Shown here piece after piece: positions 15,256-50,169 of a stretch of 64,000 nt of DNA. The translations under genes were made by a program, and so were the position numbers. Source of the DNA: Cornus controversa (lineage: Eukaryota > Streptophyta > Magnoliopsida > Cornales > Cornaceae). The stretch is from contig CM048848.1 in the NCBI GenBank assembly GCA_026545225.1, forward strand, positions 24,096,806-24,160,805, in the 5' to 3' direction. A model generated the notes under the pieces. That model saw only the letters and a program-made list of their open reading frames with translations. It searched no databases and was not told the DNA's origin. How positions within the stretch are numbered: position 1 is the stretch's first letter; every line of letters begins with the position of its first letter.

Positions 15256-16597
15256 ATGACGGACAGCGCGCTGGATTTTGTGTTGGAGAAGATGATGCAG
15301 CTAATGAACTCCGGCGAGGAATTGTTTTTGATTGAGAAGGTAGAAATGGAATGGGTTTATGAGGAGATGCAGTTCCTGCGGAAGTTCCTCAAGGATTCAG
15401 AGGACATACGCGACGACGAGCTGAAAGAAATTGTGGCAAAAATTAGAGATGTCACTTACCAAGTTGAAGATATTATTGACTCATTGGTACTGTTCAACAC
15501 TGTCTTGAAGATGGATGGAAGCGTTGCTGGCGTTGAATTTCCTCTCCTCGTCAGTAGGTTCAATGACATTACGAAGATGAAAGAGATTTATTGTGATTCT
15601 GTTGTCATGTCTAGAAAATTAGTGATGGGTCTAAGACTTTGATGAAAGATATTGATTGTATCAAGAGATCCAAGACACAGATCATAGAGAATATCTCATG
15701 GTTTGCAGAGAAAATTCATCACTATGGACATGGCTTTGATGATGATGACGGTCATAGTGTCATAGAACAAGAAGAAGAAGAGATCAAGTCTCTCATAAAT
15801 CAGGTGATGGAGATTTATGAGAAGGGATTGAGTACTCTTAGATGGCTTGAGTCTTTTCATGTGTCTGAAGAAGTTGATCTCCTCCGCAATATGTCCGATA
15901 AGGTGCTCTACTGGGGTGAGAAAGACCCTGATCCCATGGCTTGTTACAAACGAAGGATTTTGTTTGGAAGGTTCTGTTTCCATATCCCATGGATTGTTCC
16001 TCTCGTCTTCCGTAGGTTTAACGACATGGTCGACCTGGCTAAGAAAATTCATCATCAATTTGGCGGTGTCGTGGAAGAGCTCAAGCCTATCATGATACTA
16101 CTGATGAAAATTCATCAGAAGGGATTGAGTGTCTCATCGCTTCAGTCTGATAACATGGCATATCGAATTTGTCTCCTCCAAATTCCGTTGGAACAGATAA
16201 TCAACCTGGCTGAGAAAATCCATCATGAATTTGGCGGTGTCATAGAAGAGAGCAAGGCTGTCAATACAGAGGCAATGGAGGCTGTCAAGTGGGGAATAAA
16301 TGAATTTATTAGGTATATGCATCAAGGTCTTGACAATGTGAAAGAAGATATTAAGTCTATAAAGAGAGAGGGGATGGAGATTTATGAGAAGAAGATAGAT
16401 GGCATCGGAGGAGTCCTGCAAGTTGGAAGTTCTTCCCATGGGGCTTCATCAAAACCCGTCAACCCCGTACTAGTGGAAGGAACAGTAGTTGGTTTCGATG
16501 ATGACATAAGGACAATAATGGAGTTGCTTACCGAACAACATGAAAAGGATCTTAAAATTATACCCATTGTTGGAATGCCTGGACTCGGTAAGACAAC
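15256..16597 (+). pseudogene. NLR resistance gene, 5' part: coiled-coil domain and P-loop (broken)
   Basis: NLRs are cytoplasmic receptors that detect pathogen effectors. The first frame (15256-15642) encodes an Rx-type coiled-coil start, 'MTDSALDFVLEKMMQLMNSG', with 'VTYQVEDIIDSL' (the EDVID position). A frameshift ends it at 15640-15642, and the frame resumes from 15639. The second part holds three related helical modules marked FAEKIHH, LAKKIHH and LAEKIHH (residues 22, 133 and 190 of that frame), then 'VVGFDDDI' and the P-loop GMPGLGKTT at about 16572-16598. Element A inserts in the last codons, with TSD ACAAC at 16593-16597. The best family guess is the R1/late-blight-like CNL class. Later parts of the gene are at 39173-39343 (minus), 25950-26426 (minus) and 48656-50169. 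Confidence 0.9.
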
Positions 16598-16901
16598 TGT
16601 AGGTACAGAAAAATTGTAATTACACTTAATCAGATCCCTTTTTCATTACAAACTCGATCTTTTAAATACATTCTCAAATGCCATGATCATGCCTTTGATT
16701 TCTCCCTTTCTTTTTACTTGAGGAATAGCACCTCTTTACTTGCCCTGAGTTCAGTGCTTGAACATAGGTATCAGTCGGAGGAAATTCCGGGATTCTTTAC
16801 TATATTTATGTCACCTAAATTTAGGTGATATGGATGGTGACGTGGTTGCCACGCATTGTGTTGGTCGCACGTGTCACCTAACGACTCTTTTTTCCACTAC
16901 A
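16598..16901 (-). repeat. 3' LTR of element A
   Basis: 304 bp, TGTAGGTACAG...CCACTACA on the plus strand. It differs from the right LTR at about seven positions by eye. A TATA-like 'ATAAATATAG' is present on the minus strand (about 16796-16806). Confidence 0.92.
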
Positions 16902-16923
16902 GCTTGCCCCAAAAACCCCTTCC
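16902..16923 (-). promoter_or_regulatory. Polypurine tract of element A
   Basis: The minus strand reads GGAAGGGGTTTTTGGGGCAAG plus one base, directly before the 3' LTR. An identical tract lies at 48330-48351 in A'. Confidence 0.8.
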
Positions 16924-17169
16924 AATTTTAGTTGAAATTTGAAAGGGTTTTTCTGTTATGATCGTCGCTTCGTTTGTTCCGCCAGGTCGCGTTTGGGCTT
17001 CGTGCCTCTGACGGCCGCCGTAATGTCACTTCCACATAAATGCCTATACTTGCTCTTGTATTTTTCGGATCGTTGTAGATTTTGGGTGATTCTGGGAATA
17101 TTTTCTCGTCTGCTGAGGTTAGTGATTTCCTTTTCCTCCTACTACTGTTTTCCTTTTTTCTTCGAAGAT

Positions 17170-19279
17170 ATGGGTAAGGCGAGAAGTGTCGAGATTGTTG
17201 ATGAGTTTAGACCACTGAACCGCTATCAGTCTATTGACGAGTTTCTGGGTGAGGATGAGTGTGGTCAGAGTCTCCCAGAGGTTCCTTCTGTTCCTCCAAC
17301 ACTAGCCAATCCCTCTTCTTCGAAAGATCAGAGTTCTTCGGATTCTGATTTAGAGGACGCTGATCGAGACCTAATTAGGACTCCTGTGAATTTGGGAAAA
17401 CACAGACTTGATTGTGAGATCTCGTCCGACGTTACTCTTAGGAATTATCCTCTTGATTTTGACTTCCGATCTGGATATGGTTTGGGTGATGATGACATGC
17501 TCTTCTCGGCTAGGCATTTTCCCGCCTTTCGTTTTCCCCTTCACCCTTTCTATCATCTTGTGCTTAACAAACTGAATTTGGCTCCCTTGCAAGTGAACCC
17601 TAACTTCTTTAGGGTTATATCCAGTGTTCTTGCCCTTAATCATACTCGTGATTTAGAGTTGGGATTGGACGATCTCCTTCTTTGTTATCAGGTCTGTGCT
17701 ACAAAGAATGAGAGGGATCGGTTCCATTTATTCCCACGTCCAGGCAAATCGGCTCTGTACCGGTCATCCCTCTTCTGACAAGGGCTGGAAAGCCCAACTT
17801 GTGGTGGTTGGGGGAAACTGGAAGGTCTCTTCTTCTAAGAAATTTCTCATCCCTCAGAAATTTGGTGGATTAGGTATCCCGCCTTCTGACTTTCTATCTG
17901 AACCTCATTGTGACTGTATTATATGTGATGTTGTGCGCTTTAATCAAATTCGGTCTTTTGTTGGCGCGGTTAGAGATCTCCTTCCTCGTTCGGAATTAGC
18001 GGCACGCTTGAAGACACTTGCTGAAAAGGTGTGGAGGAAGGTACCCAAGTCCTCCCTTCTCTTGTGCTCTTCAGTACTCAAAGTTATCTCAGAGAGTTCA
18101 GACGGCGTAAAAATGAAACTTCCGAAAACTACTCATACCAAAACAAAGAAGCTGTCTGAAGGGGACAGCCTCATCAGTCCCCCGACTGATCGAGAAGTAG
18201 AAGTGGCCTCGATCCTGCGCAAAAGGCATGCCGAGGAGGCAACGGCGGAGAAGTCACTTCCTGCTGAAGTGATTGAAATAGAGGAGCCTGCTCCTCCTTT
18301 GAAGTCTCAGAAGGCCACTATCTCAGCTTCTCCTTCGGTTCCGGGACCTAGGGGGCCTCTAGTTGTTAGGATGGCTGGGATGGGTTCTGATGCCCCAAGC
18401 TCCTCTGCGGTGGAACCGTGGGTTCATCGGATGGTGAAGGAGAATGGTATGCCTTTATCTGTTGAAGACTCCATTCTCGAAAGCAGAGAATCGATGAAGG
18501 CATTTCTAAAAGAGATGTGGCCCCCCCGAGACGTAAAGATGATGATGGAGCTTTCTGTTGGAAACCTTTTGGACTCATGTCGTGATGCGGCCCTCAAGGT
18601 GAGCAGTGTAGGACGTGTTATCGGTTTCATCCTATGCTCTTCTGTTATTTATCTTTGATGGTTTCATGTGCCTTTGCAGAGCCTGTTTGGTGTGATGACC
18701 ATGTGTAAATTGGTCGAGCAGGCGACCGTTAAGGTCAAAAAGGCGGACGTTCAGATTAGAAGGGCTGAGGCAGACTTCGTGGCGGCCATGCGTGAGGTCA
18801 ACAATGAGAAGGCCAAGTCCCAGGCTCTACTGCTGGAGAACGAGCAACTCAAGTCTCAAGTGGAGGACCTCTCCAAAAAGAATGAGGAGGCTGAGTTCCA
18901 GAGAGCATTGGCTGAATCCCGAACGGCCGAGTCTGAACAGAACGTTAGCTATTTGCAGGATAGATCGACTAAGCTGGAGAAGGGTGCCAAGGCTCTGTTT
19001 GATCGGTTATCTCTTACTGTTCAGATCAGAAATGCAGAAGCTTATCGTCAAGGCTTTGAGGACGCTTTGGCTCCCGAAGCTAATCGATCCTATCCTGGTG
19101 GACCTGCTGAATATGATCGAGAGATGGGCTTAACAGGTCCCCCTTACTAGGATCCAGAAGAAGGGGACGAGGAGAAGGAGATCGCCAGCATCTTCGAGGA
19201 TGCTCATACTTCTCAGAAAGATGCGATTCCACAAAGTGGGGAGCCTGCCAATGCCTCGGATTCTCCTTCAGCGCATTAG
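17170..19279 (+). pseudogene. Antisense accessory ORF of element A (gypsy-type 'transposase_28'-like), spliced, broken
   Basis: This gene is encoded opposite to gag-pol, as known for Tat elements such as Grande. Exon 1 (17170-18598) starts MGKARSVEIVDEF. It carries 'FPLHPFYHLVLNKLNLAPLQ', resembling the putative gypsy-type transposon domain (PF04195-like), and a 'KGWKAQLVVVGGNWKV' block. A one-base insertion near 17750 shifts the frame relative to A'. Exon 2 (18680-19279) is a long heptad-like coiled coil ('NNEKAKSQALLLENEQLKSQ') with an acidic tail. A TAG at 19148-19150 replaces the CAG found in A'. The acidic region before exon 2 is S/P-rich and may be nuclear. Function is unknown. Confidence 0.75.
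18599..18679 (+). other. Intron of the antisense ORF (81 bp)
   Basis: The donor is AAG|GTGAGC and the acceptor TTTGCAG|AGC. It is phase 0 and contains stop codons. The frames on both sides join without shift (codon ends at 18598, next begins 18680). Confidence 0.8.
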
Positions 19280-19599
19280 TTCGCCAACATATTCTCTTCT
19301 TTCTTTTGTAATGCTCTTTGGGGCAGCTTTCATCTGTAAAAGCCTTTTGATTTTAATAGAGAATGTTCCTTTGATTCGTCAAAAATTCGTATACTTGTTT
19401 GTTGTTTGTACTTTACGTTTATGCGATTCCCTATTATCTTCATGGGGTTAACCGCCCAAGGTACATGCTTTTCGCTCCTTCGGCTACTCAGGCTTTCTGT
19501 TATTTGAGACCCCCAGTTGATCATGCGGGAGTATCCTTTGTTCTTCCATGACATTCGGTTGTTTGTGCCGATGACTCGTACATTCCTTTTTGGCGTTAG

Positions 19600-20170
19600 G
19601 CTGTTCATGCCTTCGCTATTTTCTTTGACTTGAGACTTTCAGCTGACCATGCCGAAGTCTCGTTCAATCTCTTTAGTGTTCGGCCATTCACGCCTTAGCC
19701 ATTTTCTTTCATTTGAGACCTTCAGCTGGTCATGCTGAAGTCTCGTTCATTCCCTTCTGGCGTTCGGCTGTTCATGCCTTTGCCATTCTTTTTCATTTGA
19801 GACCTTCAGCTGGTCATGCCGAAGTCTCGTTCATTCCCTTCTGGCGTTCGGCTGTTCATGCCTTTGCCATTCTTTTTCATTTGAGACCTTCAGCTGGTCA
19901 TGCCGAAGTCTCGTTCGTTCGTTCTGGCGTTCGACTGTTCATGCCTTTGCCATTCTTTTTCATTTGAGACCTTCAGCTGGTCATGCCGAAGTCTCGTTCG
20001 TTCCTTCTGGCGTTCGGCTGTTCATGCCTTTGCCATTCTTTTTCATTTGAGACCTTCAGCTGGTCATGCCGAAGTCTTGTTCATTCCTTTCTGGCGTTCG
20101 GCTGTTCATGCCTTTGCCATTCTTTTTCATTTGAGACCTTCAGCTGGTCATGCCGAAGTCTCGTTCATTC
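19600..20170. repeat. Tandem repeat, 84-bp period, in element A
   Basis: At least six units contain 'gagaccttcagctggtcatg' and 'tggcgttcggctgttcatgc', starting near 19717, 19801, 19885, 19969, 20053 and 20135. Decayed units extend upstream to about 19510. The array lies between the end of pol and the antisense ORF, as in A'. ORFs through it are repeat translations. Confidence 0.9.
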
Positions 20171-20361
20171 TCTGGAAAATCTTTTGCAAAATGTTTAAGA
20201 CAGTGGCATTGCGCTGCTTTTACTTGCCGCGCAAGGCCACTGTCTTTGTGCAGGGTATGTAGGATTCATTATATTAAATGAAGAAAGACCTGACACTTAT
20301 CCGATGTGGAATTAAATCAAATAACAGACTTTCAATTCTTTATTTAAAAGTGCTCTAGGGC

Positions 20362-23202
20362 TTACATGTAGTACCTTTTCAGGTGCATTGCGTTCCAAGG
20401 TTTTTCGACCATGGCTCTATTGTCGTGCATTCTTCGCAGTCTGTAAGCTCCCTTTCCAATAGCTTCGACTATTTCAAATGGACCTTCCCATTTTGCTGCA
20501 AATTTTCCTGCGTTAGGTTCTCTGGTGTTATTGGTGACTTTGCGTAAGACCCAGTCCCCCTGCTCGAACGATCGGGGTCTAACCTTTTTGTTGTAGGCTC
20601 TACGGAGTCTTTGCTGGTAAGCTGCTACCCTTATTTGCGCAGCTTCTCTCTTCTCCTCAATCAGTTCGATGTCGTGCTCGATCAGCCGATTGTTTTCCTG
20701 CTCATCGAACGACTTAATGCATTCGGTCGGGATGTCAAGTTCGACTAGGATTACTGCTTCCATCCCATATGTCATGCTGAAGGGACTACTCCCCGTAGGT
20801 CTTCTAGGGGTGGTCCTGTAGGCCCAGAGTACTTTCGGCAGTTCTTCTAACCAGTGCCCTTTTCTCTCTTCTAACTTCTTCTTGATATTCTCAAAGATGG
20901 TTTTATTGGTGATCTCTGCTTGCCCGTTTCCTTGTGGGTAGGACCTTGATGAGAGTCGGTGGTTGATTCCATACTTCGCAAAGAACCTCTGGACGAATTG
21001 ATTGTCCAAATTTTTCCCATTATCCATAATTATCGCCGAAGGTATGCCAAAGCAGCATATTAAGTTGTTCCAGATAAATTTCTCGACTTGTGTGTGGGTT
21101 ACAGAGGCGTATGCTTCTGCCTCAACCCACTTGGTGAAATAGTCCGTTGCCAGAAGAACATATCTCTTCCTTTGGGTCGCGATCGGCAGAGGTCCCACCA
21201 TGTCCATCCCCCATTGGGCGAAGGGCCAAGGGCTGGTCATTGGATTCAAGTTCTCTGGTGGTTGATGTAGCAGCTGAGCGTGCTTTTGGCACTTGTCGCA
21301 ATTTCTGGAGTATTCTGCAGCGTCGTGGGACATGTACGGCCAGAAGTATCCTATTGTCAGAGCCTTGTGGGCTAGCGATCGTCCCCCAGAATGATTGCCG
21401 CAAACCCCTTCATGGATTTCCTTCAAGACCGTGTTGGCCTCCGAAGGCTTCAGGCACTTTAATAGTGGGCCTGAGAATGACCTTCGGTAAAGGTTATTAT
21501 TGATGATTGAATACCTTGAGGCCTTCATTCTCAACTTTTTTGCCTCTAATTTTTGCTCGGGGAGGGTTCCATTCCTAAGATATGCTTCTATCGGATCCAT
21601 CCAACTCTGCTCTCGTGGGATTACAAGTACTTCTATTGGTTTTTCGATGCTCGGCTCTCTCAGCTCTTCCACAGAGGATACTCTGGTCATAGATTCGTCT
21701 GCGTTGGAGGCCGAGCAAGCTAACCTGTCAGCCGCCTCGTTCTCCTCACGCGGTATGTGCTTTATGATCACCTCATCAAAGTTCCTCATGTCTTCACGTA
21801 CTGCCTCTCGGTAAGCGTTCATCTTACCATCTCTGGTCTGGAATTCCCCATTAATTTGACTCACTACCAATTGTGAGTCACTGAATAATGTCAGCTTCCT
21901 GATCTGTAAAGATTTTGCCAGCCGAAGTCCCGCAAGGAGAGCCTCATACTCTGCTACGTTGTTTGTGGCGTCGAAATCAAATCGGATGGCATGGTGGAGC
22001 ATGATCCCGTCGGGAGTTCTTACCTCGATTCCTGCTCCTGCTCCGGTGTGGCAAGATGAACCGTCTACATAAATTTTCCACTGGGGTGGATCTTCTTTCT
22101 CTTCCACCGGTTCGTCGTATTCTAATAGGAATTCGGCCAATACCTGCCCTTTGCGGGCTGTTCGAGGTATGAAGAGATTGTCGTAGGCGCTGAGGTCCAT
22201 GGCCCACTTCATCATTCTCCCTGTCATGTCCAGCTTGCTTAGTATGGCTTTGAGTGGCAAATTTGTTGGGACAACTATTTGATGTGATTCAAAATAGTGT
22301 CTCAGCTTCTTCTTTGCGTGTATTAAAGCCAAGATCGTCGTCTTGCTGGAGTAATACACTCGGTGCTGCTTCCCGTCCTCTTCCCTGACCAGCGTTGCAC
22401 TTGTCGATATTTTCGATACAGCCAAGTATAGATGTAATTTTTCCCCGGGTTTGGGTATCGAGAGTATTGGTGCTGAGGCCATATACTGTTTTAGCATTTT
22501 TAGGGCTTCCATCTGATCTGTTCCCCAAATTTTGCCCCTCTTCTTTCGGATAACGTCAAAGAATGGTTTGCACTTATCTGAGAGTCGTGATATGAATCTG
22601 CTAAGGGCGGCTATTCGCCCAGTAAGGACCTGGACATCTCGCTGAGTTTTTGGTTCCGTCATCTGAATCAGTGCCGAAGATTGGGATGGGCTTACTTCTA
22701 TCCCCGTTCTGCTGACCATGTGGCCGAGGAACTGTCCGGATAGCAGTCCGAATGAACATTTCGAGGGGTTAAGCCTTAACCGATGTCCCCTAAGGGTGTC
22801 GAACACTTCTTGTAGATGTCGCACATGGTCTTCCCTCCTTTTACTTTTGACCACCATATCATCTATGTAGGCTTCCACGGTCTTACCTATCTGATCTCTG
22901 AAGACACGATTGACCATTTGCTGATACGTTGCTCCTGCGTTCTTTAAACCAAAGGGCATTACTTTGTAGCAGTAGGTTCCTTGTTCAGTAATGAACGAAG
23001 TTTTCTCCACATCCTTCGGATCCAATGGAATCTGGTTGTATCCTGAATAGGCATCTAAAAAGGTTAGCAACTCATAGCCTGCAGTGGCGTCCACCTTTTG
23101 GTCTATTTTGGGTAACGGGAAGCTATCTTTCGGGCAGGCCTTGTTTAGGTTCGTGAAGTCAATGCAAACTCTCCACTTTCCATTTTTCTTTCGTACCACC
23201 AC
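20362..23202 (-). pseudogene. Element A pol: reverse transcriptase, RNase H, integrase
   Basis: This open frame of 946 codons copies RNA into DNA and inserts it. In order it has: RT with 'FLDAYSGYNQI', 'MPFGLKNAGATYQ' and the catalytic 'YIDDMVV'; RNase H with 'IYVDGSS', 'NVAEYEALLAGL' and 'LFSDSQLVV'; the integrase HHCC finger ('CDKCQKH'); and the integrase core with D in 'GMDMVGPL', D in 'IIMDNGKN' and E in 'GNGQAEITNK'. The C-terminal part includes 'FEIVEAIGKGAYRLR' and ends RYYM. Fourteen codons (TMTDAENRYSKAEK-like in A') are missing after 'VYYSSKT', removing part of the RT-RNase H link. The upstream part of pol is frameshifted, so the product could not be made as one polyprotein. Confidence 0.92.
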
Positions 23203-23570
23203 GACATTGGATAGCCATTCTGGGTATTTTACTTGATAAGATTAGCTTGGAGCAGGCGATGGATCTCTTCGGCTATTATCTGGTTTCTTTCAGGTTCGAA
23301 CCTCCTCTGCTTTTGTTTGACAAGTATGCTATGGGGGTCCACGTTCAGGGTGTGTTTCGCCAGATTGGGGTCTACCCCTGGCATGTCCAGGTGAGTCCAG
23401 GCGAACACGTCCCTGTTCCTTCTTAATACTTCAACCAGCTCTTCTTTTTCTTGATTCTGGAGCATCGTCCCGATCTGCGTATCCTTGTTTTCATCCGGGT
23501 TACCTAGCTGAATTGTTAGGAGCCGTTCTACGGGTCTGGCCACGCTTTCGGCCTCTTGTGGCTCAGGCAT
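23203..23570 (-). pseudogene. Element A pol, linker upstream of RT (frameshifted)
   Basis: The frame 23570-23229 starts MPEPQEAESVARPVERL and includes 'RNRDVFAWTHLDMPGVDP', the conserved 'F.W...DMPG' stretch before RT in Tat and other gypsy elements. It ends 'LQANLIK' and a stop, because four bases present in A' (in 'atcagggaagtaaa') are missing near 23235. RT then resumes in another frame. Confidence 0.85.
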
Positions 23571-24155
23571 GCCCGACTTCTGTGATTGCTATTGATCGCT
23601 AATCTCTGCAACTTTTCTATCTCTCGATGTGCTTCTGACAGTGAGCGAGTAGCATTCTTTTGCTGCCACCTGATCGCCCCGAAGATCTATTGTTCCCCTT
23701 CCGTTAGGGGTTAGACACCTCATTACTTGGTGTAAGGTTGATGGTACCCCCTGCATCCTGTGGATCTAACCTCTTCCCATTATGAGGTTGTAAGATGAAT
23801 GAACGTCTGCTACCACGAACGTCTCCCTGAGTGTTCTCTGAGCTGCCGTCACGGATAGTGCGATTGTTCCTGTCGGCAATACTTTGTTTCCGTCGAAACC
23901 TACGAGTGGCCCATCGGCTCGTTTGATCTGATCACTCCCATTTCCCACTTGCTTGAAAACTTCCAGTGTCATTATATTAGCACTTGATCTAGCATCAATG
24001 AGCACTCTTTTTATCCAGCAATTTGCCACCAGTAAGCTGACTACCAATGGATCTTCGTGGGGGAGTTGCACTCTCAGTAGGTCCGGATCTCCGAACGTGA
24101 TTTGAGCATCGGCACCCATGTTTTGGACGGAATTGACCTCCGTCATTTTCTGCAA
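23571..24155 (-). pseudogene. Element A protease region
   Basis: The frame contains 'RVLIDARSSANIMTLEVF' at the retropepsin active site. The expected D-T/S-G-S is D-A-R-S here, so the conserved Gly is replaced by Arg. A' has the same change. 'SYNLIMGRG' is followed by TAG (about 23767), where A' has TGG (Trp). Beyond that the frame continues toward a stop before the next block. Confidence 0.8.
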
Positions 24156-24286
24156 TTTTTTAGCTTGGCGGACGACTGATCTAGACGATCTTTGATCTCC
24201 TTGGGTAGCATAACCATGTATTGTATTGATCGTTCTGACCGTATTTGGATTCGGGTTTTTTTTTCAGTCGGGACCTATTCGTTCAT

Positions 24287-25536
24287 TCACTCTCGGTGAT
24301 CTTTCACCACATATTCTGTCAGACCTCCTTTGGCAATGATCGCCTCCGTTTGTCCTCTGAGATTACGACATTCATTAGTGGTGTGCCCGTAATCCTGATG
24401 CAGGGCGCAATGCTTATTCTTGTCTCTGAGCTCGGCTGGGATCCGGATGGGTGGGGGTGTTCGGAATATGCCTCTACCCTTGTTTTCCTGGTATAGCCTT
24501 GCTAGAGTGCATTTCAGGGGTGTGTTCTTCTCCTCGAATTTGGGACGCTTCCCTGATGTTGAGGGTGGGAGGGGGATTCTGCCCTGACCCTTCTGTTTAT
24601 CACCTTTTTCCTTAGGTAATGGGCCGACGCTTATCAAAGCTATCCTTTGCTGGCGTAGAGCTTCATCTTCTTCGAGGCTGAGGTATCCTTGTGCCTTCGC
24701 GTTCAGGTCCCCCATGGTTTTGGGGGTTTTTCTGACTAAAGATGAATGAAATTTCGAGCCAGGAATCATGGCTATTTTGAAGGCTTCCACCGCCGCTGCT
24801 TGGTCGCAGCCATCGATCAGGGACATTTCCAGGTTGAATCTGGTCATGAAGGATTTCAATGGTTCTCCTTTTTTGCTTGCCTCATGGTAAAAAGGGAAGA
24901 AATTGTTTTCTTCTGTCTCCGGTTGCCAATGTACTGTGCAATGAAAAGCTCACATAGTTTTGTAAAACTGGGGATGGTGGTCGAAGGACGTTGTTTGAAC
25001 CACGTTAGGGCAGCGCCGGACAGGCAGGTTGGAAAAACCTTACACATTAGGTTTTTGTCTTCAGCGTGCAAAGTCATCCTCTGCTGCACATGAAAGAGAT
25101 GATCAACAGGGTCTGTCGTTCCGTCGAAGGTGATGAAACTCGGGAGCCTGAACTTCCTTGGGTTCGGCGATCTCCTTATTTCGTCTGAAAAAGGAGACTG
25201 TATCACTTTGCTGGCTACTTGGGTTGCTAGATCTGCTGGGGTCAGGTTCTTCAGGTCTTTAATGTCAGCGTTAACTTCCTCCAGACGTCGGGTCAGTGCA
25301 TCAAAACTGGTTCGGGTTTGGTGGTTCGGGATTCTGGCTGATCTGCGACTCGTCCTTCGTCTCGAGCGGAATTGTACTCCACAGATGCTTCCCTCTCCGG
25401 CGGGGCGGTCTCCGGCTGTTTTTCAATGAGTCGCGCGATCTTTTCTTGGAGCAGGTCATTGCTCCGGTTGGATTCCTCCAACTGATTTCGTAGTTCCTGT
25501 AGGAGCTACTCTTGTGTTTGATTTGGATCCATCGTG
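24287..25536 (-). pseudogene. Element A gag (frameshifted)
   Basis: Gag starts MDPNQTQE at 25536 and meets a TAG at codon 9, exactly as in A'. The coiled region 'LLQEKIARL' follows, then the frame shifts near 25310. The capsid part, 25206-24856 ('CLSGAALTWFKQRPSTTIPS', 'FIAQYIGNRRQKKTI'), is followed by another shift near 24865. The last part includes 'FNLEMSLIDGCDQ' and a knuckle-like 'CALHQDYGHTTNEC' (C-x2-H-x4-H-x4-C). A' keeps these parts in one frame. Confidence 0.85.
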
Positions 25537-25625
25537 TGACTCAGAGTGGGTGGTTTGTGCCCCATTATAGTCTCGGAACGTAGCTGTATAGGCATAAACT
25601 CCCAAAGAATCTATGGATTGCTTCG

Positions 25626-25643
25626 TTCCCACAGACGGCGCCA
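25626..25643 (-). promoter_or_regulatory. Primer-binding site of element A
   Basis: The minus strand reads TGGCGCCGTCTGTGGGAA, three bases inside the 5' LTR. TGGCGCC is the complement of a tRNA 3' end. I do not assign the tRNA; it is not the Asp type used by B and E. Confidence 0.75.
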
Positions 25644-25646
25644 AAG

Positions 25647-25949
25647 TGTAGGTACAGAAAATTGTAATTACACTTAATCAGATCCCTTTTTCATTATAAC
25701 CTCGATCTTTTAAATACATTCTCAAATGCCATGATCATGCCTTTGATTTCTCCCTTTCTTTTTACTTGAGGAATAGCACCTCTTTACTTGCCCTGAGTTC
25801 AGTGCTTGAACATAGGTATCAGTTGGAGGAAATTCCGGGATTCTTTACTATATTTATGTCACCTAAATTTCGGTGACATGGATGGTGACGTGGTTGCCAC
25901 GCATTGTGTTGGTCGCACGTGTCACCTAACGACTCTTTTTCCCACTACA
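25647..25949 (-). repeat. 5' LTR of element A
   Basis: 303 bp. It shares diagnostic bases with the left LTR of A ('ccctgagttcag', 'attccggg') rather than with either LTR of A'. The right-hand flank is CATGG (25950-25954), the complement of CCATG right of A'. Confidence 0.92.
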
Positions 25950-27854: not shown

Positions 27855-27867
27855 CACCCCCAAACTT
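27855..27867 (-). promoter_or_regulatory. Polypurine tract of element B
   Basis: The minus strand reads AAGTTTGGGGGTG next to the 3' LTR start. A second near-identical tract lies about 1.1 kb inside the element at 28947-28958. Confidence 0.85.
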
Positions 27868-37736: not shown

Positions 37737-37742
37737 AAATTT

Positions 37743-39343: not shown

Positions 39344-39647
39344 TGTAGTGGGAAAAAGAGTCGTTAGGTGACACGTGCGACCAACACAATGCGTGGCAAC
39401 CATGTCACCATCCATGTCACCCAAATTTAGGTGACATAAATATAGTAAAGAATCCCAGAATTTCCTCCAACTGATACCTATGTTCAAGCACTGAAATCAG
39501 GGCAAGACAAGAGGTGCTATTCCTCAAGTAAAAAGAAAGGGAGAAATCAAAGGCATGATCATGGCATTTGAGAATGTATTTAAAAGATCGAGGTTATAAT
39601 GAAAAAGGGATCTGATTAAGTGTAATTACAATTTTTCTGTACCTACA
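39344..39647 (+). repeat. 5' LTR of element A'
   Basis: 304 bp, starting TGTAGTGGG and ending GTACCTACA. It differs from the right LTR of A' at about seven positions, and from the left LTR of A at about eleven. Confidence 0.92.
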
Positions 39648-39650
39648 CTT

Positions 39651-39668
39651 TGGCACCGTCTATGGGAA
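39651..39668 (+). promoter_or_regulatory. Primer-binding site of element A'
   Basis: TGGCACCGTCTATGGGAA. It differs from that of A by two G-to-A type changes (TGGCGCC to TGGCACC, CTGTGG to CTATGG), consistent with methylation-driven decay. Confidence 0.72.
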
Positions 39669-39761
39669 CAAAGCAATCCATAGATTCCTTGGGAGTTTAT
39701 GCCTGTACAGCTACGTTCCGGGACTATAACGGGGCAACAACCACCCACTCTGAGCCACACG

Positions 39762-41030
39762 ATGGATCCAAATCAAACACAAGAGTAGCTCCTGCAGGAA
39801 CTGCGAAATCAGTTGGAGGAATCCAACCGGAGAAATGACCTGCTCCAAGAAAAGATCGCGCGACTCACTGAAAAACAGCTGGAGACCGCCCCGCCGGAGA
39901 GGGAAGCATCTGTGGAGTATAATTTCGCTCGAGACGAAGGACGAGTCGCAGATCAGCTAGAATCCCGAACCACCAAACTCGAAGCCAGTTTCGATGCACT
40001 GACCCGACGTCTGGAGGAAGTTAACGCTGACATTAAAGACCTGAAGAACCTGACCCCAGTAGATCTAGCAACCCAAGTAGCCAGCAAAGTGATACAGTCT
40101 CCTTTTTCAGACGAAATAAGGAGATCGCCGAACCCAAGGAAGTTCACGCTCCCGAGTTTCATCACCTTTGACGGAACGACAGACCCTGTTGACCATTTCT
40201 TTCATGTGCAGCAGAGGATGACTTTGCACGCTGAAGACAAAAACCAAATGTGTAAGGTTTTTCCAACCTGCCTGTCCGGCGCTGCCCTAACGTGGTTCAA
40301 ACAACGTCCTTCGGCCACCATCCCCAGTTTTACAAAACTATGCGAGCTTTTCATTGCACAGTACATTGGCAACCGGAGACAGAAGAAAACAATTTCTTCC
40401 CTTTTTACCATGAGGCAAGCAAAAGGAGAACCATTGAAATCCTTCATGACCAGATTCAACCTGGAAATGTCCCTGATCGATGGCTGCGACCAAGCAGCGG
40501 CGGTGGAAGCCTTCAAAATAGCCATGATTCCTGGCTCGAAATTTCATTCATCTTTAGTTAGAAAAACCCCCAAAACCATGGGGGACCTGAACGCGAAGGC
40601 ACAAGGATACCTCAGCCTCGAAGAAGATGAAGCTCTACGCCAGCAAAGGACAGCTTTGATAAGCGTCGGCCCATTACCTAAGGAAAAAGGTGATAAACAG
40701 AAGGGTCAGGGCAGAATCCCCCTCCCACCCTCAACATCAAGGAAGCGTCCCAAATTCGAGAAGAAGAACACACCCCTGAAATGCACTCTGGCAAGGCTAT
40801 ACCAAGAAAACCAGGGTAGAGGCATATTCCGAACACCTCCACCCATCCGGATCCCAGCCGAGCTCAGAGACAAGAATAAGCATTGCGCCCTGCATCAGGA
40901 TTACGGGCACACCACTAATAAATGTCGTAATCTCAGAGGACAAACGGAGGCGATCATTGCCAAAGGAGGTCTGACAGAATATGTGGTGAAAGATCAACCG
41001 AGAGTGAATGAACGAATAGGTCCCGACTGA
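39762..41030 (+). pseudogene. Element A' gag with an early in-frame stop
   Basis: The gag ATG at 39762 (MDPNQTQE) is followed by TAG at 39786-39788. The same frame then runs open to 41030, about 414 codons. Features include a coiled start ('LLQEKIARL'), capsid 'LPSFITFDGTTDPVDHFFHV', 'CLSGAALTWFKQRP', 'RFNLEMSLIDGCDQAAAVEA' and the knuckle-like 'CALHQDYGHTTNKC'. A has the same early TAG, so the lesion predates their separation or is tolerated by readthrough. Confidence 0.85.
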
Positions 41031-41138
41031 AAAGAAAACCCGAATCCAAATACGGTCAGAACGATCAATACAATACATGGTTATGCTACCCAAGGGGATC
41101 AAAGATCGTCTAGATCAGTCGTCCACCAAGCTAAAAAA

Positions 41139-41705
41139 TTGCAGAAAATGACGGAGGTCAATTCCGTCCAAAACATGGGTGCCGATGCTCAAATCACGTT
41201 CGGAGATCCGGACCTACTGAGAGTGCAACTCCCCCATGAAGATCCATTGGTAGTCAGCTTACTGGTGGCAAATTGCTGGATAAAAAGAGTGCTCATTGAT
41301 GCTAGATCAAGTGCTAATATAATGACACTGGAAGTTTTCAAGCAAGTGGGAATTGGGAGCGATCAGATCAAACGAGCCGATGGGCCACTCGTAGGTTTCG
41401 ACGGAAACAAAGTATTGCCGACAGGAACAATCGCACTATCCGTGACGGCAGCTCAGAGAACACTCAGGGAGACGTTCGTGGTAGCAGACGTTCCTTCATC
41501 TTACAACCTCATAATGGGAAGAGGTTGGATCCACAGGATGCAGGGGGTACCATCAACCTTACACCAAGTAATGAGGTGTCTAACCCCTAACAGAAGGGGA
41601 ACAATAGATCTTCGGGGCGATCAGGTGGCAGCAAAAGAATGCTACTCGCTCACTGTCAGAAGCACATCGAGAGATAGAAAAGTTACAGAGATTAGCGATC
41701 AATAG
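41139..41705 (+). pseudogene. Element A' protease region
   Basis: 188 open codons with 'RVLIDARSSANIM' in place of the D-T/S-G-S active site, 'VVADVPSSYNLIMGRGW' and 'EVMRCLTPN'-like end (here QVMRCLTPNRRG). The frame stops at 41703-41705 before the next pol block. The Arg in the active site is shared with A and would be expected to inactivate a retropepsin. Confidence 0.82.
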
Positions 41706-41723
41706 CAATCACAGAAGTCGGGC

Positions 41724-43097
41724 ATGCCTGAGCCACAAGAGGCCGAAAGCGTGGCCAGACCCGTAGAACGGCTCCTAACAATTCAGCTAGGCAACCCGGA
41801 TGAAAACAAGTATACGCAGATCGGGACGATGCTGCAGAATCAAGAAAAAGAAGAGCTGGTTGAAGTATTAAGAAGGAACAGGGACGTGTTCGCCTGGACT
41901 CACCTGGACATGCCAGGGGTAGACCCCAATCTGGCGAAACACACCCTGAACGTGGACCCCCATAACATACTTGTCAAACAAAAGTAGAGGAGGTTCGCTC
42001 CTGAAAGAAACTAGATAATAACCGAAGAGATCCATCGCCTGCTCCAAGCTAATCTTATCAGGGAAGTAAAATACCCAGAATGGCTATCCAATGTCGTGGT
42101 GGTACGAAAGAAAAATGGAAAATGGAGAGTTTGCATTGACTTCACGAACCTAAACAAGGCCTGCCCGAAAGATAGCTTCCCGTTACCCAAAATAGACCAA
42201 ATGGTGGACGCCACTACAGGCTATGAGTTGCTAACGTTTTTAGATGCCTATTCAGGATACAACCAGATTCCATCGGATCCGAAGGATGTGGAGAAAACTT
42301 CGTTCATTACTGAACAAGGAACCTACTGCTACAAAGTAATGCCCTTTGGTTTAAAGAACGCAGGAGCAACATATCAGCGAATGGTCAATCGTGTCTTCAG
42401 AGATCAGATAGGCAAGACCGTGGAAGCCTACATAGATGATATGGTGGTCAAAAGTAAAAGGAGGGAAGACCATGTGCGACATCTACAAGAAGTGTTCGAC
42501 ACCCTTAGGGGACATCGGTTAAGGCTTAACCCCTCGAAATGTTCATTCGGAGTGCTATCCGGACAGTTCCTCGGCCACATGGTCAGCAGAACGGGGATAG
42601 AAGTAAGCCCATCCCAATCTTCGGCACTGATTCAGATGATGGAACCAAAAACTCAGCGAGATGTCCAGGTCCTTACTGGGCGAATAGCCGCCCTTAGCAG
42701 ATTCATATCACGACTCTCAGACAAGTGCAAACCATTCTTTGACGTTATCCGAAAGAAGAGGGGCGAAATTTGGGGAACAGATCAGATGGAAGCCCTAAAA
42801 ATGCTAAAACAGTATATGGCCTCGGCACCAATACTCTCGATACCCAAACCCGGAGAAAAATTACATCTATACTTGGCTGTGTCGAAAATATCGACAAGTG
42901 CAGCGCTGGTCAGGGAAGAGGACGGGAAGCAGCACCCAGTGTATTACTCCAGCAAGACGATGACCGACGCCGAAAACAGATATTCAAAGGCCGAGAAGAT
43001 GATCTTGGCTTTAATACACGCAAAGAAGAAGCTGAGACACTATTTTGAATCACATCAAATAGTTGTCCCAACAAATTTGCCACTCAAAGCCATATAA
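41724..43097 (+). pseudogene. Element A' pol: linker and reverse transcriptase
   Basis: The linker frame (41724-41987) ends in TAG after 'ILVKQK', where A has a CAG-type codon. Reading continues in the same sense to the RT frame (42096-43097) with 'WRVCIDFTNLNKACPKDSFP', 'FLDAYSGYNQI', 'YIDDMVV' and 'LTGRIAALSRFIS'. It keeps the 14 codons ('MTDAENRYSKAEKM') deleted from A. The frame ends at TAA (43095-43097) in place of the Leu codon seen in A. Confidence 0.9.
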
Positions 43098-43109
43098 AGC
43101 AAGCTGGAC

Positions 43110-44974
43110 ATGACAGGGAGAATGATGAAGTGGGCCATGGACCTCAGCGCCTACGACATCCTCTTCACACCTCGAACAGCCCGCAAGGGGCAGGTATTGG
43201 CCGAATTCCTATTAGAATACGACGAACCGGTGGAAGAGAAAGAAGATCCACCCCAGTGGAAAATTTATGTAGACGGTTCATCTTGCCACACCGGAGCAGG
43301 AGCAGGAATCGAGGTAAGAACTCCCGACGGGATCTTGCTCCACCATGCCATCCGATTTGATTTCGACGCCACAAACAACGTAGCAGAGTATGAGGCTCTC
43401 CTTGCGGGACTTCGGCTGGCAAAATCTTTACAGATCAGGAAGCTGACATTATTCAGTGACTCACAATTGGTAGTGAGTCAAATTAATGGGGAATTCCAGA
43501 CCAGAGATGGTAAGATGAACGCTTATCGAGAGGCAGTACGTGAAGACATGAGGAACTTTGATGAGGTGATCATAAAGCACATACCGCGTGAGGAGAACGA
43601 GGCGGCTGACAGGTTAGCTTGCTCGGCCTCCAACGCGGACGAATCTATGACCAGAGTATCCTCTGTGGAAGAGCTGAGAGAGCCGAGCATCGAAAAACCA
43701 ACAGAAGTACTTGTAATCCCACGAGAGCAGAGTTGGATGGATCCGATAGAAGCGTATCTTAGGAATGGAACCCTCCCCGAGCAAAAATTAGAGGCAAAAA
43801 AGCTGAGAATGAAGGCCTCAAGGTATTCAATCATCAATAATAACCTTTACCGAAGGTCATTCTCGGGCCCACTATTAAAGTGTCTGACGCCTTCGGAGGC
43901 CAACACGGTCTTGAAGGAAATCCATGAAGTGGTTTGCGGCAATCATTCTGGGGGACGATCGCTAGCCCACAAGGCTCTGACAATAGGATACTTCTGGCCG
44001 TACATGTCCTGCGACGCTGCAGAATACTCCAGAAATTGCGACAAGTGCCAAAAGCACGCTCAGCTGCTACATCAACCACCAGGGAACTTGAATCCAATGA
44101 CCAGCCCTTGGCCCTTCGCCCAATGGGGGATGGACATGGTGGGACCTCTGCCGATTGCGACCCAAAGGAAGAGATATGTTCTTCTAGCAACGGACTATTT
44201 CACCAAGTGGGGTGAGGCAGAAGCATACGCCTCTGTAACCCACACACAAGTCGAGAAATTTATCTGGAACAACTTAATATGCCGCTTTGGCATACCTTCG
44301 GCGATAATTATGGATAATGGGAAAAATCTGGACAATCAATTCGTCCAGAGGTTCTTTGCGAAGTATGGAATCAACCAACGACTCTCATCAAGGTCCTACC
44401 CACAAGGAAACGGGCAAGCAGAGATCACTAATAAAACCATCTTTGAGAATATCAAGAAGAAGTTAGAAGAGAGAAAAGGGCGCTGGTTAGAAGAACTGCC
44501 GAAAGTACTCTGGGCCTACAGGACCACCCCTAGAAGACCTACGGGGAGTAGTCCCTTCAGCATGACATATGGGATGGAAGTAGTAATCCCAGTCGAACTT
44601 GAAATCCCGACCGAACGCATTAAGTCATTCGATGAGCAGGAAAACAATCGGCTGATCGAGCACGACATCGAACTGATTGAGGAGAAGAGAGAAGCTTCGC
44701 AAATAAGGGTAGCAGCTTACCAGCAAAGACTCCGTAGGGCCTACAACAAAAAGGTTAGACCCCGATCGTTCGAGTAGGGGGACTGGGTCTTACGCAAAGT
44801 CACCAATAACACCAGAGAACCTAACGCAGGAAAATTTGCAGCAAAATGGGAAGGTCCATTTGAAATAGTCAAAGCTATTGGAAAGGGAGCTTACAGACTG
44901 CGAAGAATGCACGGCAATAGAGCCATGGTCGAGAAACCTTGGAACGCAATGCACCTGAAAAGGTACTACATGTA
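43110..44974 (+). pseudogene. Element A' pol: RNase H and integrase
   Basis: Open from 43110 to a TAG at 44775-44777 (CAG in A), with C-terminal coding resuming to RYYM at about 44974. RNase H has 'IYVDGSS' and 'LFSDSQLVVSQINGEF'. Integrase has 'CDKCQKHAQ', D in 'GMDMVGPL', D in 'IIMDNGKN' and E in 'GNGQAEITNK'. The catalytic residues are kept; loss is by stop codons. Confidence 0.9.
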
Positions 44975-45164
44975 AGCCTTAGCACACTTTTAAATAAAGA
45001 ATTGAAAGTCTGTTATTTGATTTCATCCCACATCGGATAAGTGTCAGGTCTTTCTTCATTTAATAAAATGAATCCTACATACCCTGCACGAAGATAGTGG
45101 CCTTGCGCGGTAGGTAAAAGCCGCGCAATGTAACTGTCTTAAACATTTTGCAAAATATTTTTCA

Positions 45165-45670
45165 GAGAATGAACGAGACTTCGGCATGACCAGCTGAAGG
45201 TCTCAAATGAAAAAGAATGGCAAAGGCATGAACAGCCGAACGCCAGAAGAGAATGAACGAGACTTCGGCATGACCAGCTGAAGGTCTGAAATGAAAAAGA
45301 ATGGCAAAGCCATGAACAACCGAACGCCAGAAGGAATGAACGAGACTTCGGCATGACTAGCTGAAGGTCTCAAATGAAAAAGAATGGCAAAAGCATGAAC
45401 AGCCGAACGCCAGAAGGAACGAACGAGACTTCGGCATAACCAGCTGAAGGTCTCAAATGAAAAAGAATGGCAAAGGCATGAACAGCCGAACGCCAGAAGG
45501 GAATGAACGAGACTTCTGCATGACCAGCTGAAGGTCTCAAATGAAAGAAAATGGCTAAGGCATGAATGGCCGAACACTAAAGAGATTGAACGAGACTTCG
45601 GCATGGTCAGCTGAAAGTCTCAAGTCAAAGAAAATAGCGAAGGCATGAACAGCCTAACGCCAAAAAGGAA
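45165..45670. repeat. Tandem repeat, 82-84-bp period, in element A'
   Basis: Five to six units with 'cgagacttcggcatgaccagctgaaggtc' halves and 'aatggcaaaggcatgaac'. This is the counterpart of 19600-20170 in A with fewer clean units. Frames through it are not genes. Confidence 0.9.
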
Positions 45671-46019
45671 CGTACGAGTCGTCGGCACAAACAACCGAAT
45701 GTCATGGAAGAACAAAGGAGACTTCGGCATGATCAGCTGGGGGTCTCAAATAACAGAAAGCCTGAGTAGCCGAAGGAGCGAAAAGCATGTACCTTGGGCG
45801 GTTAACCCCATGAAGATAATAGGGAATCGCATAAATCATAAAGTACAAACAACAAACAAGCATACGAATTTTTGACAAATCATAGGAACATTCTCTATTA
45901 AAATCAAAAGGCTTTTACAGATGAAAGCTGCCCCAAAGAGCATTACAAAAGAAAGAAGAGAATATGTTGGCGAACTAATGCGCCGAAGGAGAATCCGAGG
46001 CATTGGCAGGCTCCCCACT

Positions 46020-48083
46020 TTATGGAATCGCATCTTTCTGAGAAGTATGAGCATCCTCGAAGATGCTGGCGATCTCTTTCTCCTCGTCCCCTTCCTCTGG
46101 ATCCTGGTAAGGGGGACCTGTTAAGCCCATCTCTCGATCATATTCAGCAGGTCCACCAGGATAGGATTGATCAGCTTCGGGAGCCAAAGCGTCCTCAAAG
46201 CCTTGACGATAAGATTCTGCATTTCTGATCTGAACAGTAAGAGATAACCGATCAAACAGAGCCTTGGCACCCTTCTCCAGCTTAGTCGATCTATCCTGCA
46301 AAGAGCTGACGTTCTGTTCAGACTCGGCCGTTCGGGATTCAGCCAATGCTCTCTGGAACTTAGCCTCCTCATTCTTTTTGTAGAGGTCCTCCACTTGAGA
46401 CTTGAGTTGCTCGTTCTCCAGGAGCAGAGCCTGGGACTTAGCCTTCTCATTGTTGACCTCACGCATGGCCGCCACGAAGTCTGCCTCAGCCTTTCTAATC
46501 CGAACGTCCACCTTTTTGACCTTAACGGTCGCCTGCTCGACCAATTTACACATGGTCATCACACCAAACAGGCTTTGCAAAGGCACACGAAACCATCAAA
46601 GATAAATAATAGAAGAGCATAGGATGAAACCGATAAGACGTCCTACACTGCTCACCTTGAGGGCCGCATCAAGACATGAGTCCAAAAGGTTTCCAACAGA
46701 AAGCTCCATCATCATCTTTACGTCTCGGGGGGGCCACATCTCTTTTAGAAATGCCTTCATCGATTCTCTACTTTCAAGAATGGAGTCTTCAACAGATAAA
46801 GCCATACCATTCTCCTTCACCATCCGATGAACCCACAGTTCCACCGCAGAGGAGCTTGGGGCATCAGAACCCATCCCAGCCGTCCTAACAACTAGAGGCC
46901 CCCTAGGTCCCGGAACTGAAGGAGAAGCTGAGATAGTGGCCTTCTGAGACTTCAAAGGAGGAGCAGGCTCCTCTATTTCAATCACTTCAGCAGGAAGTGA
47001 CTTCTTCGCCGTTGCCTCCTCGGCATGCCTTTTGCGCAGGATCGAGGCCACTTCTACTTCTCGATCAGTCGGGGGACTGATGAGGCTGTCCCCTTCAGAC
47101 AGCTTCTTTGTTTTGGTACGAGTAGTTTTCGGAAGCTTCATTTTTACGCCGTCTGAACTCTCTGAGATAACTTTGAGTGCCAAAGAGCACAAGAGAAGGG
47201 AGGACTTGGGTACCTTCCTCCACACCTTTTCAGCAAGGGTCTTCAAGCGTGGCGCTAATTCCGAACGAGGAAGGAGATTTCTAACTGCGCCAACAAAAGA
47301 CCGAATTTGATTAAAGCGCACAACATCACATATAATACAGTCACAATGAGGTTCAGATAGAAAGTCAGAAGGCGGGATACCTAATCCACCAAATTTCTGA
47401 GGGATGAGAAATTTCTTAGAAGAAGAGACCTTCCAGTTTCCCCCAACCACCACAAGTTGGGCTTTCCAGCCCTTGTCAGAAGAGGGATGACTGGTACAGA
47501 GCGATCTGCCCGGATGTGGGAAGAAATGGAACCGATCCCTCTCATTCTTTGTAGCACAGACCTGATAACAAAGAAGGAGATCGTCCAATCCCAACTCTAA
47601 ATCACGAGTATGATTAAGGGCAAGAACACTGGATATAACCCTAAAGAAGTTAGGGTTCACTTGCAAGGGAGCCAAATTCAGTTTGTTAAGCACAAGATGA
47701 TAGAAAGGGTGAAGGGGAAAACGAAAGGCGGGAAAATGCCTAGTCGAGAAGAGTATGTCATCATCACCCAAACCATATCCAGATCGGAAGTCAAAATCAA
47801 GAGGATAATTCCTAAGAGTAACGTCGGACGGGATCTCACAATCAAGTCTGAGTTTTCCCAAATTCACAGGAGTCCTAATTAGGTCTCGATCAGCGTCCTC
47901 TAAATCAGAATTCGAAGAACTCTGATCTTTCAAAGAAGAGGGATTGGCTAGTGTTGGAGGAACAGAAGAAACCTCTGGGAGACTCTGACCACACTCATCC
48001 TCACCCAGAAATTAGTCAATAGACTGATAGCGGTTCAGTGGTCCAAACTCATCAACAATCTCGACACTTCTCGCCTTACCCAT
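46020..48083 (-). pseudogene. Antisense accessory ORF of element A'
   Basis: This is the homologue of 17170-19279, starting at 48083 on minus. A TAA replaces the GAG of A near 48015 ('SID*FLGEDE'). The frame is then open from about 47990 to 46656, covering the domain with 'FPLHPFYHLVLNKLNLAPLQ' and the intact 'HPGRSLCTSHPSSDKGWKA' junction that is shifted in A. The coiled-coil exon 2 ends at 46020 after 'SQKDAIP'. The intron (46655 to about 46575) keeps its GTGAGC donor, but the acceptor CAG has become CAA (46575), so normal splicing is lost. Confidence 0.75.
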
Positions 48084-48329
48084 ATCTTCGAAGAAAAAAG
48101 GAAAACAGTAGTAGGAGGAAAAGGAAATCACTAACCTCAGCAAACGAGAAGATATTCCCAGAATCGCCTAGAATCTACAACGATCCGAAAAATACAGGAG
48201 CAAGTATAGGCATTTATGTGGAAGTGACATTACGGCGGCCGTCAGAGGCACGAAGCCCAAACGCTACCTGGCGGAACAAACGAAGCGACGGTCATAACAG
48301 AAAAACCCTTTCAAATTCCAACTAAAATT

Positions 48330-48351
48330 GGAAGGGGTTTTTGGGGCAAGC
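48330..48351 (+). promoter_or_regulatory. Polypurine tract of element A'
   Basis: Purine-rich tract GGAAGGGGTTTTTGGGGCAA plus GC, directly before the 3' LTR; identical to that of A. Confidence 0.8.
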
Positions 48352-48655
48352 TGTAGTGGGAAAAAGAGTCGTTAGGTGACACGTGCGAGCAACACAATGC
48401 GTGGCAACCACGTCACCATCCATGTCACCCAAATTTGGGTGACATAAATATAGTAAAGAATCCCAGAATTTCCTCTAACTGATACCTATGTTCAAGCACT
48501 GAAATCAGGGCAAGAAAAGAAGTGCTATTCCTCAAGTAAAAAGAAAGGGAGAAATCAAAGGCCTGATCATGGCATTTGAGAATGTATTTAAAAGATCGAG
48601 GTTATAATGAAAAAGGGATCTGATTAAGTGTAATTACAATTTTTCTGTACCTACA
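48352..48655 (+). repeat. 3' LTR of element A'
   Basis: 304 bp. It shares 'ccctgatttcag' and 'attctggg' (complement strand) with the left LTR of A', not with A. The flank CCATG follows at 48656-48660. Confidence 0.92.
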
Positions 48656-50169
48656 CCATGTTTCCTCTATTTTGGTGCATTCCCTGAAGACTATGAGATC
48701 CCTGTTAGGCAACTGATATGGTTATGGGTTTCTGAGGGATTTATACGACAAAATGAGCAAAAAAACATGGAGGAAAAAGCAGAGGATTACTTGATCGATC
48801 TAATTGACAGAAGTCTAGTAGTTGTGTCCAAGAAAAGGTCTAATGGTGGAATCAAAGCATGTCGTGTACATGATCTCTTGCGTGATTTGTGCCTGAGAAT
48901 AGCACAGGAAGAGAACTTTCATCAACAGATTTTCGGGTATGACCCTACTTCTTCATCTTCTTCTTCCTCAAGTCCTATTCCAAATAAACAACGTTGCTTA
49001 TGCATCCATTCTCACCTTGTTGACTATCCTTCTATAAAGCATCATGTGTTACACGTGCGCTCTTTTTTGTCCTTTAACGTTTCATTTTATGATTTACCTA
49101 AGAGGGATATCTCATTTGTTTGTAAAGCATTCAAATTTCTTAGAGTTTTGAATTTATTGTCCATTGAAGTACCCTTCCTTCCTATACAAATAGAGGTACT
49201 ATTTAATTTGAGGTATTTAGCACTTAATGTTGGAGAGAGTGACTATTTCCAGTTACCAATATCCAAACTCTGGAACTTAGAAACCCTTTTTATTAAAGGA
49301 TCAAAAGGTTTGTTAGTTTTATCAGATGATATCTAGAAGATGGTAAAGTTAAGGCATCTGTATTCTAAGCGGTCTATTAAAATCCTTGGTGAATCTATTG
49401 ATGGCCATCCCTTTTTATTGGATAACCTACAAACCATTGGCAAACTAGATCTTGAATAACTAAATCTTTACGGACTGTACATGAAATTCTTGAAAAGGAA
49501 TCCCACCAGTCTAATTGACTTCAAAATTTTAAAAGAATCATTGGGTGTGTACAACAGTCATTTTGCTAAATGGATTCCCAATCTTAGGAAACTAAGATGT
49601 GTGTGCAAACATTTTCCTGAATTGGACTTTTTAGTTTGCCTTGAAACATTGAATGTAGTATACCGTTGGTCCAGGACAATAATGTTTCTCCATTTGAATA
49701 AGTTTCCCCCAAATCTCAAAAGCTTAACTTTATCAGCTTCAGTCTACCCTGGAACCAAATGTCGACCCTTGGGAGGTTGCCCAACCTTGAGGTTCTCAAA
49801 TTATCATACAAGGCATTCGAGGGGCCAAGATGGGACACAAGTGATGGGGAGTTTCGGAAACTCAGATACTTGAAATTTCAACGCCTGGATATTAAGCTAT
49901 GGAATGCCTCTGCTACTCACTTTCCCTGCCTTCAGACATTAATGTTGGATGACTGTAAACTACTCAAGGAGATCCCATCTGATTTAGGAGATATATGTAC
50001 ACTACAAATGATCCGACTGAGATATTGTAGCCACTCTGCTGAAAACTCGGCTAGACAAATTCACGAAGAACAACAGAGTATGGGAAATGATGAGCTAAAT
50101 ATCATTATTGATCCTTGGGATCCTGACTTGACAGTCTTCAAGGATGACTCTGGCAAAATGGGTTTCTAG
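48656..50169 (+). pseudogene. NLR 3' part: end of NB-ARC and leucine-rich repeats
   Basis: The frame opens in the CCATG target site (LKP-C) with FLYFG/FWCIPED-like RNBS-D, 'VRQLIWLWVSEGFI', the MHD-equivalent 'RVHDLLRDLCLRIAQ' (V for M), then LRRs with 'FLRVLNLLSI', 'LFNLRYLALNV' and 'LPNLEVLKLSYKAFEGP'. Lesions are a TAG at 49334-49336 (the relic at 51.4 kb has TGG, Trp, here), a TAA at 49457-49459 and a frameshift near 49757. It ends TAG at 50167-50169. The LRR domain is of ordinary R1-like length and supplies recognition in intact relatives. Confidence 0.9.

Follow-up and report, generated by a model that had tools for sequence, protein, structure and literature searches.

How can two copies of one retrotransposon sit in a single resistance gene with neither copy flanked by matching target-site duplications (TSDs), and with the middle of that gene reading backwards? 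The question is raised by a 64,000-nucleotide stretch of Cornus controversa DNA (C4:24096806-24160805, hereafter the window; the assembly has 772 Mb in 61 contigs), in which a nucleotide-binding leucine-rich repeat (NLR) gene is interrupted by two long terminal repeat (LTR) retrotransposons of one family, A and A', and by a third element, B. A first-pass annotation had read the arrangement as an inversion between two retrotransposons inside one NLR gene, and our analysis bears this reading out: the window very probably carries an inversion with both ends in A and A', because the TSDs are exchanged between the two elements, the NLR pieces between them are changed in coding strand and order, and an element-free, uninverted paralogue (X1) is found in the same genome. 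Two of the tests, one on the gene reading frame and its homologues and one on X1, are independent of the 5-bp flanks. Rearrangements of this kind are already known, and the locus is a tidy plant example confined to one gene.

Exchanged target-site duplications of two inverted elements

The elements and their flanks are listed in window positions.

16593-16597, no strand: 5-bp target site ACAAC, left of A (partner GTTGT at 39339)
16598-25949, minus strand: element A, Ty3-type LTR retrotransposon (pol on the minus strand)
16598-16901, minus strand: outer LTR of A, 304 bp (LTR comparison)
25647-25949, minus strand: inner LTR of A, 303 bp (LTR comparison)
25950-25954, no strand: 5-bp target site CATGG, right of A (partner CCATG at 48656)
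26422-26426, no strand: left copy of the TSD of B, CTCTT (perfect repeat)
26427-39172, minus strand: element B, Ty3-type LTR retrotransposon (LTRs 26427-27854 and 37743-39172)
39173-39177, no strand: right copy of the TSD of B, CTCTT (perfect repeat)
39339-39343, no strand: 5-bp target site GTTGT, left of A' (flank of the element)
39344-48655, plus strand: element A', same family as A (gag and pol open reading frames, ORFs, on the plus strand)
39344-39647, plus strand: inner LTR of A' (LTR comparison)
48352-48655, plus strand: outer LTR of A' (LTR comparison)
48656-48660, no strand: 5-bp target site CCATG, right of A' (flank of the element)

All four edges of A and A' (16598, 25949, 39344 and 48655) were confirmed to the base, both elements beginning with TG and ending with CA, and the four 5-mers lie exactly where they had been annotated. 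End-to-end alignment of A with A' gave 234 mismatches in 9265 gap-free columns (97.5% identity) in inverted orientation, in agreement with the annotated opposite orientation. A points to the left and A' to the right, because Pfam places the reverse transcriptase, RNase H and integrase domains on the minus strand of A (pol domains at 20362-23202) and gag on the plus strand of A' (39813-41030); pol was read from A and gag from A'. With these domains, LTRs bounded by TG and CA and a 5-bp TSD, both elements have the features of Ty3-type LTR retrotransposons. Elements of the Tat-type Ty3 lineage carry two RNase H domains and, in addition, an ORF antisense to pol. A single ORF of A holds RT_RNaseH plus RNase_H/RVT_3, and an antisense ORF of A' has a weak match to Transposase_28, below its cut-off. 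An approximately 84-bp tandem repeat lies inside A (19550-20175) and A' (45164-45703), where the two differ by gaps.

As had been claimed, the 5-mers on the two sides of A differ from each other, and so do those beside A'; when both elements are read in their own orientation, each 5-mer flanking A recurs at the opposite end of A'. Given the 5-mer frequencies of the window, a single reverse-complement match of this sort is expected by chance with a probability of 0.00132 and both with 1.7 × 10−6. B keeps its own perfect TSD, and therefore the unmatched flanks are special to A and A'.

Reading frame of the NLR gene

Exchanged TSDs that lie within an exon have the advantage that the reading frame can serve as a check. 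The NLR gene is present in four pieces.

15256-16597, plus strand: NLR 5' part, coiled-coil region to P-loop GLGKTT (ORFs, start of Pfam NB-ARC, tblastn with the X1 protein)
25955-26421, minus strand: inverted NLR piece, rest of NB-ARC up to ...HHLK (frame, homologues, tblastn)
39173-39338, minus strand: inverted NLR piece LTIKLYNDPF...KMSDE, which follows the P-loop in the uninverted order (frame, homologues, tblastn)
48656-50169, plus strand: NLR 3' part with CFLYFGAFPED, winged helix and leucine-rich repeats (ORFs, Pfam, tblastn; with a frame break and stops)

For both pieces enclosed by A and A', the coding strand is the minus strand, and their order is swapped. When the segment was turned back, the P-loop (GLGKTT|LTIK) and the CFLYFGAFPED stretch were rebuilt, and with a single copy of each TSD retained the frame ran unbroken through the three insertion sites; the turned-back gene still has a frame break within 25955-26421. 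The NB-ARC score was 20 bits for the left piece alone, 21 bits for this piece with its present neighbour and 124 bits for the turned-back order. For the winged helix, WH_DRP scored 80 bits in the translation across the CCATG junction and 34 bits in the ORF 48767-49336, which starts 111 bases to the right of that junction. Taken in the order of X1, the window pieces match NB-ARC, WH_DRP and, below its cut-off, LRR_14.

Homologous proteins gave the same order. We mapped 120 listed homologues of the 764 with E <= 0.001 (7996 were scored) and called a homologue contiguous if its matches met within 4 residues, a tolerance that was set after seven homologues had been viewed. Contiguity was found in 116/120 across site 1 (ACAAC), in 116/120 across site 2 (CCATG) and in 112/120 across both, and in the eight others the matches overran the edge, ended short of it or had a gap nearby. 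No plus-strand match of the 120 homologues started in the inner NLR pieces. The closest named relatives among the homologues listed are Cornus florida NLRs with about 60% identity, and the R1/RPP13 type label is taken from homologue names. This result also disposes of the weakest alternative, that A and A' are ordinary insertions with mutated TSDs among unrelated NLR fragments: NLR clusters often contain fragments, and the idea is nevertheless refuted by the contiguous homologues and by the base-exact continuity with X1 described below, as well as by the strand and order of the coding pieces, so that we give it practically no weight.

Besides the three elements, the window NLR has frame breaks near 15615-15639, 26104-26191 and 49708-49789 and stops in its 3' part, and judging by these lesions this copy looks dead. 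Remains of a second NLR lie at 51063-52013, with a pre-NB-ARC region at 51066-51329 followed directly by leucine-rich repeat sequence at 51354-52013; no homologue gave an NB-ARC match between these two parts.

An element-free paralogue in the uninverted order

A genome search with the inner NLR piece found a second locus at 98%. This locus, X1 (L014, C4:28444009-28447536, minus strand), is a paralogue and not an allele; it has an uninterrupted open frame of 1175 amino acids, contains none of the elements, and its frame aligns with the NLR pieces of the window (tblastn with the X1 protein). X1 follows window 15261-16597, then 39338-39173, then 26421-25955 and then 48656-50115, with 98.0% identity over 3427 aligned bases and 45 gap columns besides. 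The first-pass annotation had held that different 5-mers in an uninverted relative would speak against the inversion; X1 carries ACAAC and CCATG, once each, at the two sites. Both elements were thus inserted at single target sites. The target of B is likewise present in one copy in X1; it differs at one base, reading ACGAG in gene sense where the window has AAGAG.

The uninverted order is not restricted to X1. Of 39 matches outside the window, the best 19 were checked; these paralogous loci have the uninverted order in 19/19 cases at site 2 and in 18/19 at site 1, where the remaining match ends before the site. The uninverted order is therefore ancestral and the assembled order of the window is derived. 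A further NLR, 70-79% identical in the matched parts, lies in opposite orientation about 16 kb from X1 (L036-L037, approximately C4:28463759-28466508).

Centre-deleted duplicates and the timing of the insertions

Two duplicates of the NLR locus match the window on both sides of the gene.

C4:21806000-21825000 (L009 and L010, at 21.81 Mb): S1
C4:20401500-20420500 (L011 and L012, at 20.41 Mb): S2

S1 and S2 are 99.6% identical to each other over 15.0 kb. In both, outer A (to approximately 19844) is joined to outer A' (from approximately 46328) and everything between is gone; what is left is an inverted pair of unequal arms, about 3.2 and 2.3 kb long. The two parts meet approximately at the 84-bp tandem repeat of A, either inside it or next to it, close to a CGTTCGG that both partners contain. 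The outer junctions are at the same bases as in the window (...ACAAC|TGTAGG and CCTACA|CCATG), and therefore both insertions predate the duplication. The host flanks differ from the window by 0.7-0.9% in S1 and S2 and by 2.8-3.1% in X1; if X1 was never invaded, the insertions fall between the split from X1 and the split from S1 and S2. Because S1 and S2 lack the centre, they are uninformative on whether the inversion is older or younger than the duplication.

Tandem arrays related to A lie 79-158 kb beyond each of the three locus copies, with matches to the end of A every 3254-3255 bases at C4:21911270-21928544 (at least 6), C4:20487056-20501076 (at least 5) and C4:24271844-24276102 (at least 2). 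They have the appearance of a tandem repeat that arose from a retrotransposon and lies within a large segmental duplication.

Proposed course of events and size of the turned segment

The most likely cause of the inversion is a crossover between the inverted element copies. An R1/RPP13-like NLR gene would have received, in its NB-ARC exon, two near-identical copies of one Ty3-type LTR retrotransposon, in opposite orientation and about 0.63 kb apart; one insertion would have doubled ACAAC at the P-loop and the other CCATG at the CFLYF stretch. The inverted copies would then have recombined and turned over the intervening segment. The outcome would be two elements, presumably chimeric, whose TSDs are exchanged, in an NLR gene whose middle reads backwards; element B would have entered the middle segment before or after this step. 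We infer homologous recombination as the mechanism, and an inversion later than the insertions.

B could have been inside the segment during the turn or could have landed after the inversion. Its LTRs (1428 and 1430 bp) differ by 1.8%, and those of A and A' by 2.0% and 2.3%, which gives no order of B insertion relative to the inversion. The first-pass annotation had the whole 13.4 kb including B flipped; the inversion stands, and 13.4 kb is an upper bound, so the turned segment may have held as little as about 0.65 kb of NLR sequence (B later) or as much as 13.4 kb (B earlier), in each case together with element ends.

The case is unusually complete, since a copy free of elements and in ancestral order, the inverted locus and a collapsed product that has lost its centre all lie on one chromosome of one genome; the succession in which the NLR gene was duplicated, invaded, inverted and left to decay can in large part be read. 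It suggests that a resistance gene broken by two retrotransposons can afterwards be rearranged through them.

Traces of the crossover and alternative explanations

For a crossover in the element interior, the simplest expectation is that the outer LTR of A pairs with the inner LTR of A', and the outer LTR of A' with the inner LTR of A. Several observations weigh against our interpretation and are gathered here. The two LTRs of a physical element differ by 6 and 7 substitutions, those of TSD partners by 11 and 9; the inner LTRs differ from each other by 6 and the outer ones by 14. Three LTR sites group by physical element and none by TSD. The chimeric nature of A and A', which is the hallmark of a crossover, was sought by site patterns and was not demonstrated in the outer 2.3 kb, the part covered by the site comparison, the inner parts having no comparator in S1 and S2. 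At one site in these 2.3 kb (1141) the pattern is swapped, as a crossover later than the split would make it; the change is a CpG transition, however, and equal rates predict 0.2-0.4 coincidences of this kind. Finally, the inner junctions (25949/25950 and 39343/39344) come from one assembled locus only.

The LTR pairing by element can be explained by conversion between the two LTRs of A after the split from S1 and S2. Compared with S1, S2 and two outgroups, positions 141 and 152 of the LTR show derived states in the window locus that only the two LTRs of A share, and the third grouping site, 191, is a C/T change in a CpG. In the excerpted text of a survey of fifteen plant species, potential conversion is given for 25% of LTR pairs and is much more frequent within than between elements (PMC7251063). 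A crossover inside the LTR, which the pairing had suggested, was considered as well and was dropped as unnecessary in view of the same three sites.

The site comparison (columns with a gap, and one in which more than two states occurred, were dropped) gave three A/A' differences shared by the window, S1 and S2 in the outer 2.3 kb; all three lie in the LTR, and none of them is swapped. With so few common differences, A and A' must have been nearly identical when the loci split, either as members of the same burst or because they had been homogenised. Independence of the two insertions in time finds no support in these three differences. Three further sites set the window copies of A and A' apart from the four copies in S1 and S2, where about 0.5 is expected. 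Taken literally, the three unswapped differences together with site 1141 would place a crossover between positions 296 and 1141 and after the split, but one swapped site is too little to claim this.

The main rival to a real inversion is an assembly error, in which the assembler reversed the segment between the 9.3-kb inverted repeats, so that the insertions are real and the inversion is not; only reads could exclude it, and we consider it unlikely. Switching of an assembler between inverted repeats gives exactly exchanged TSDs, and, besides the single origin of the inner junctions mentioned above, other copies were sought by the end of A and the inner NLR piece: among the matches listed, S1 and S2 were the only others with A and A', and they lack the inner junctions, while of the three inner-piece matches of at least 92% only the window has an A-family element adjoining. 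On the other hand, the window contains no N, the 61 contigs for 772 Mb make long reads likely, and A and A' differ about every 40 bases, which is sufficient for accurate long reads. The LTR pairing by physical element also mildly favours the assembled order.

The same pairing would fit a single event, in which two sister cDNAs of one burst integrated at two nearby sites with their ends swapped and no crossover followed; the exchanged TSDs would then be a birth mark of the elements rather than the trace of a crossover. The short distance of 0.63 kb within one exon and the lack, outside the LTRs, of any A/A' difference common to all three locus copies in the outer 2.3 kb are in line with this. 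However, later conversion accounts for the pairing, a family burst or conversion between inverted repeats explains the similarity of A and A' equally well, and our literature search gave no precedent among the entries listed, so we regard a single event as very improbable, and less probable than an assembly error.

Comparison with known systems

The search returned precedents of the kind and, among its results, no account of this locus; we make no wider claim on the literature. What follows is limited to the excerpts of each report. The closest likeness is inversion 2z3 of Drosophila buzzatii, generated by Galileo, where two oppositely oriented copies of one element lie at the breakpoints with exchanged TSDs, and where the uninverted state has single copies of the target sites, as here (PMC2775673). 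Galileo is a DNA transposon and its inversion chromosomal, whereas the present elements are LTR retrotransposons and the whole inversion lies inside one gene; the Galileo elements are reported as chimeric, which is only presumed for A and A', and the comparator was uninverted chromosomes, in contrast to a paralogue that is not an allele (PMC2775673). In maize centromere 10, chimeric complete LTR elements with mismatched TSDs occur among recombinant sequences, and A and A' are likewise complete elements with mismatched TSDs. The three chimeric maize elements are not paired as the ends of an inversion, whereas both exchange partners are present here and the uninverted order is known (PMC4806543). 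The RGA08 cluster of Musa balbisiana combines NLR genes with LTR elements, duplication and inversion, as in the present case, but the excerpts describe no exchanged TSDs inside one NLR gene, which is the feature of this locus (PMC3017797).

Other repeats in the window

Window positions 914-10015 are absent from S1, S2 and X1 and are probably a younger insertion. A direct repeat of about 197 bp borders them (at 718-913 and 10016-10212, 98% alike) and is far longer than a usual TSD. A 1.5-kb repeat pair lies at 10805-12319 and 61600-63109 (96.7% alike); the copy at 10805-12319, which is absent from S1, S2 and X1, looks like a solo LTR.

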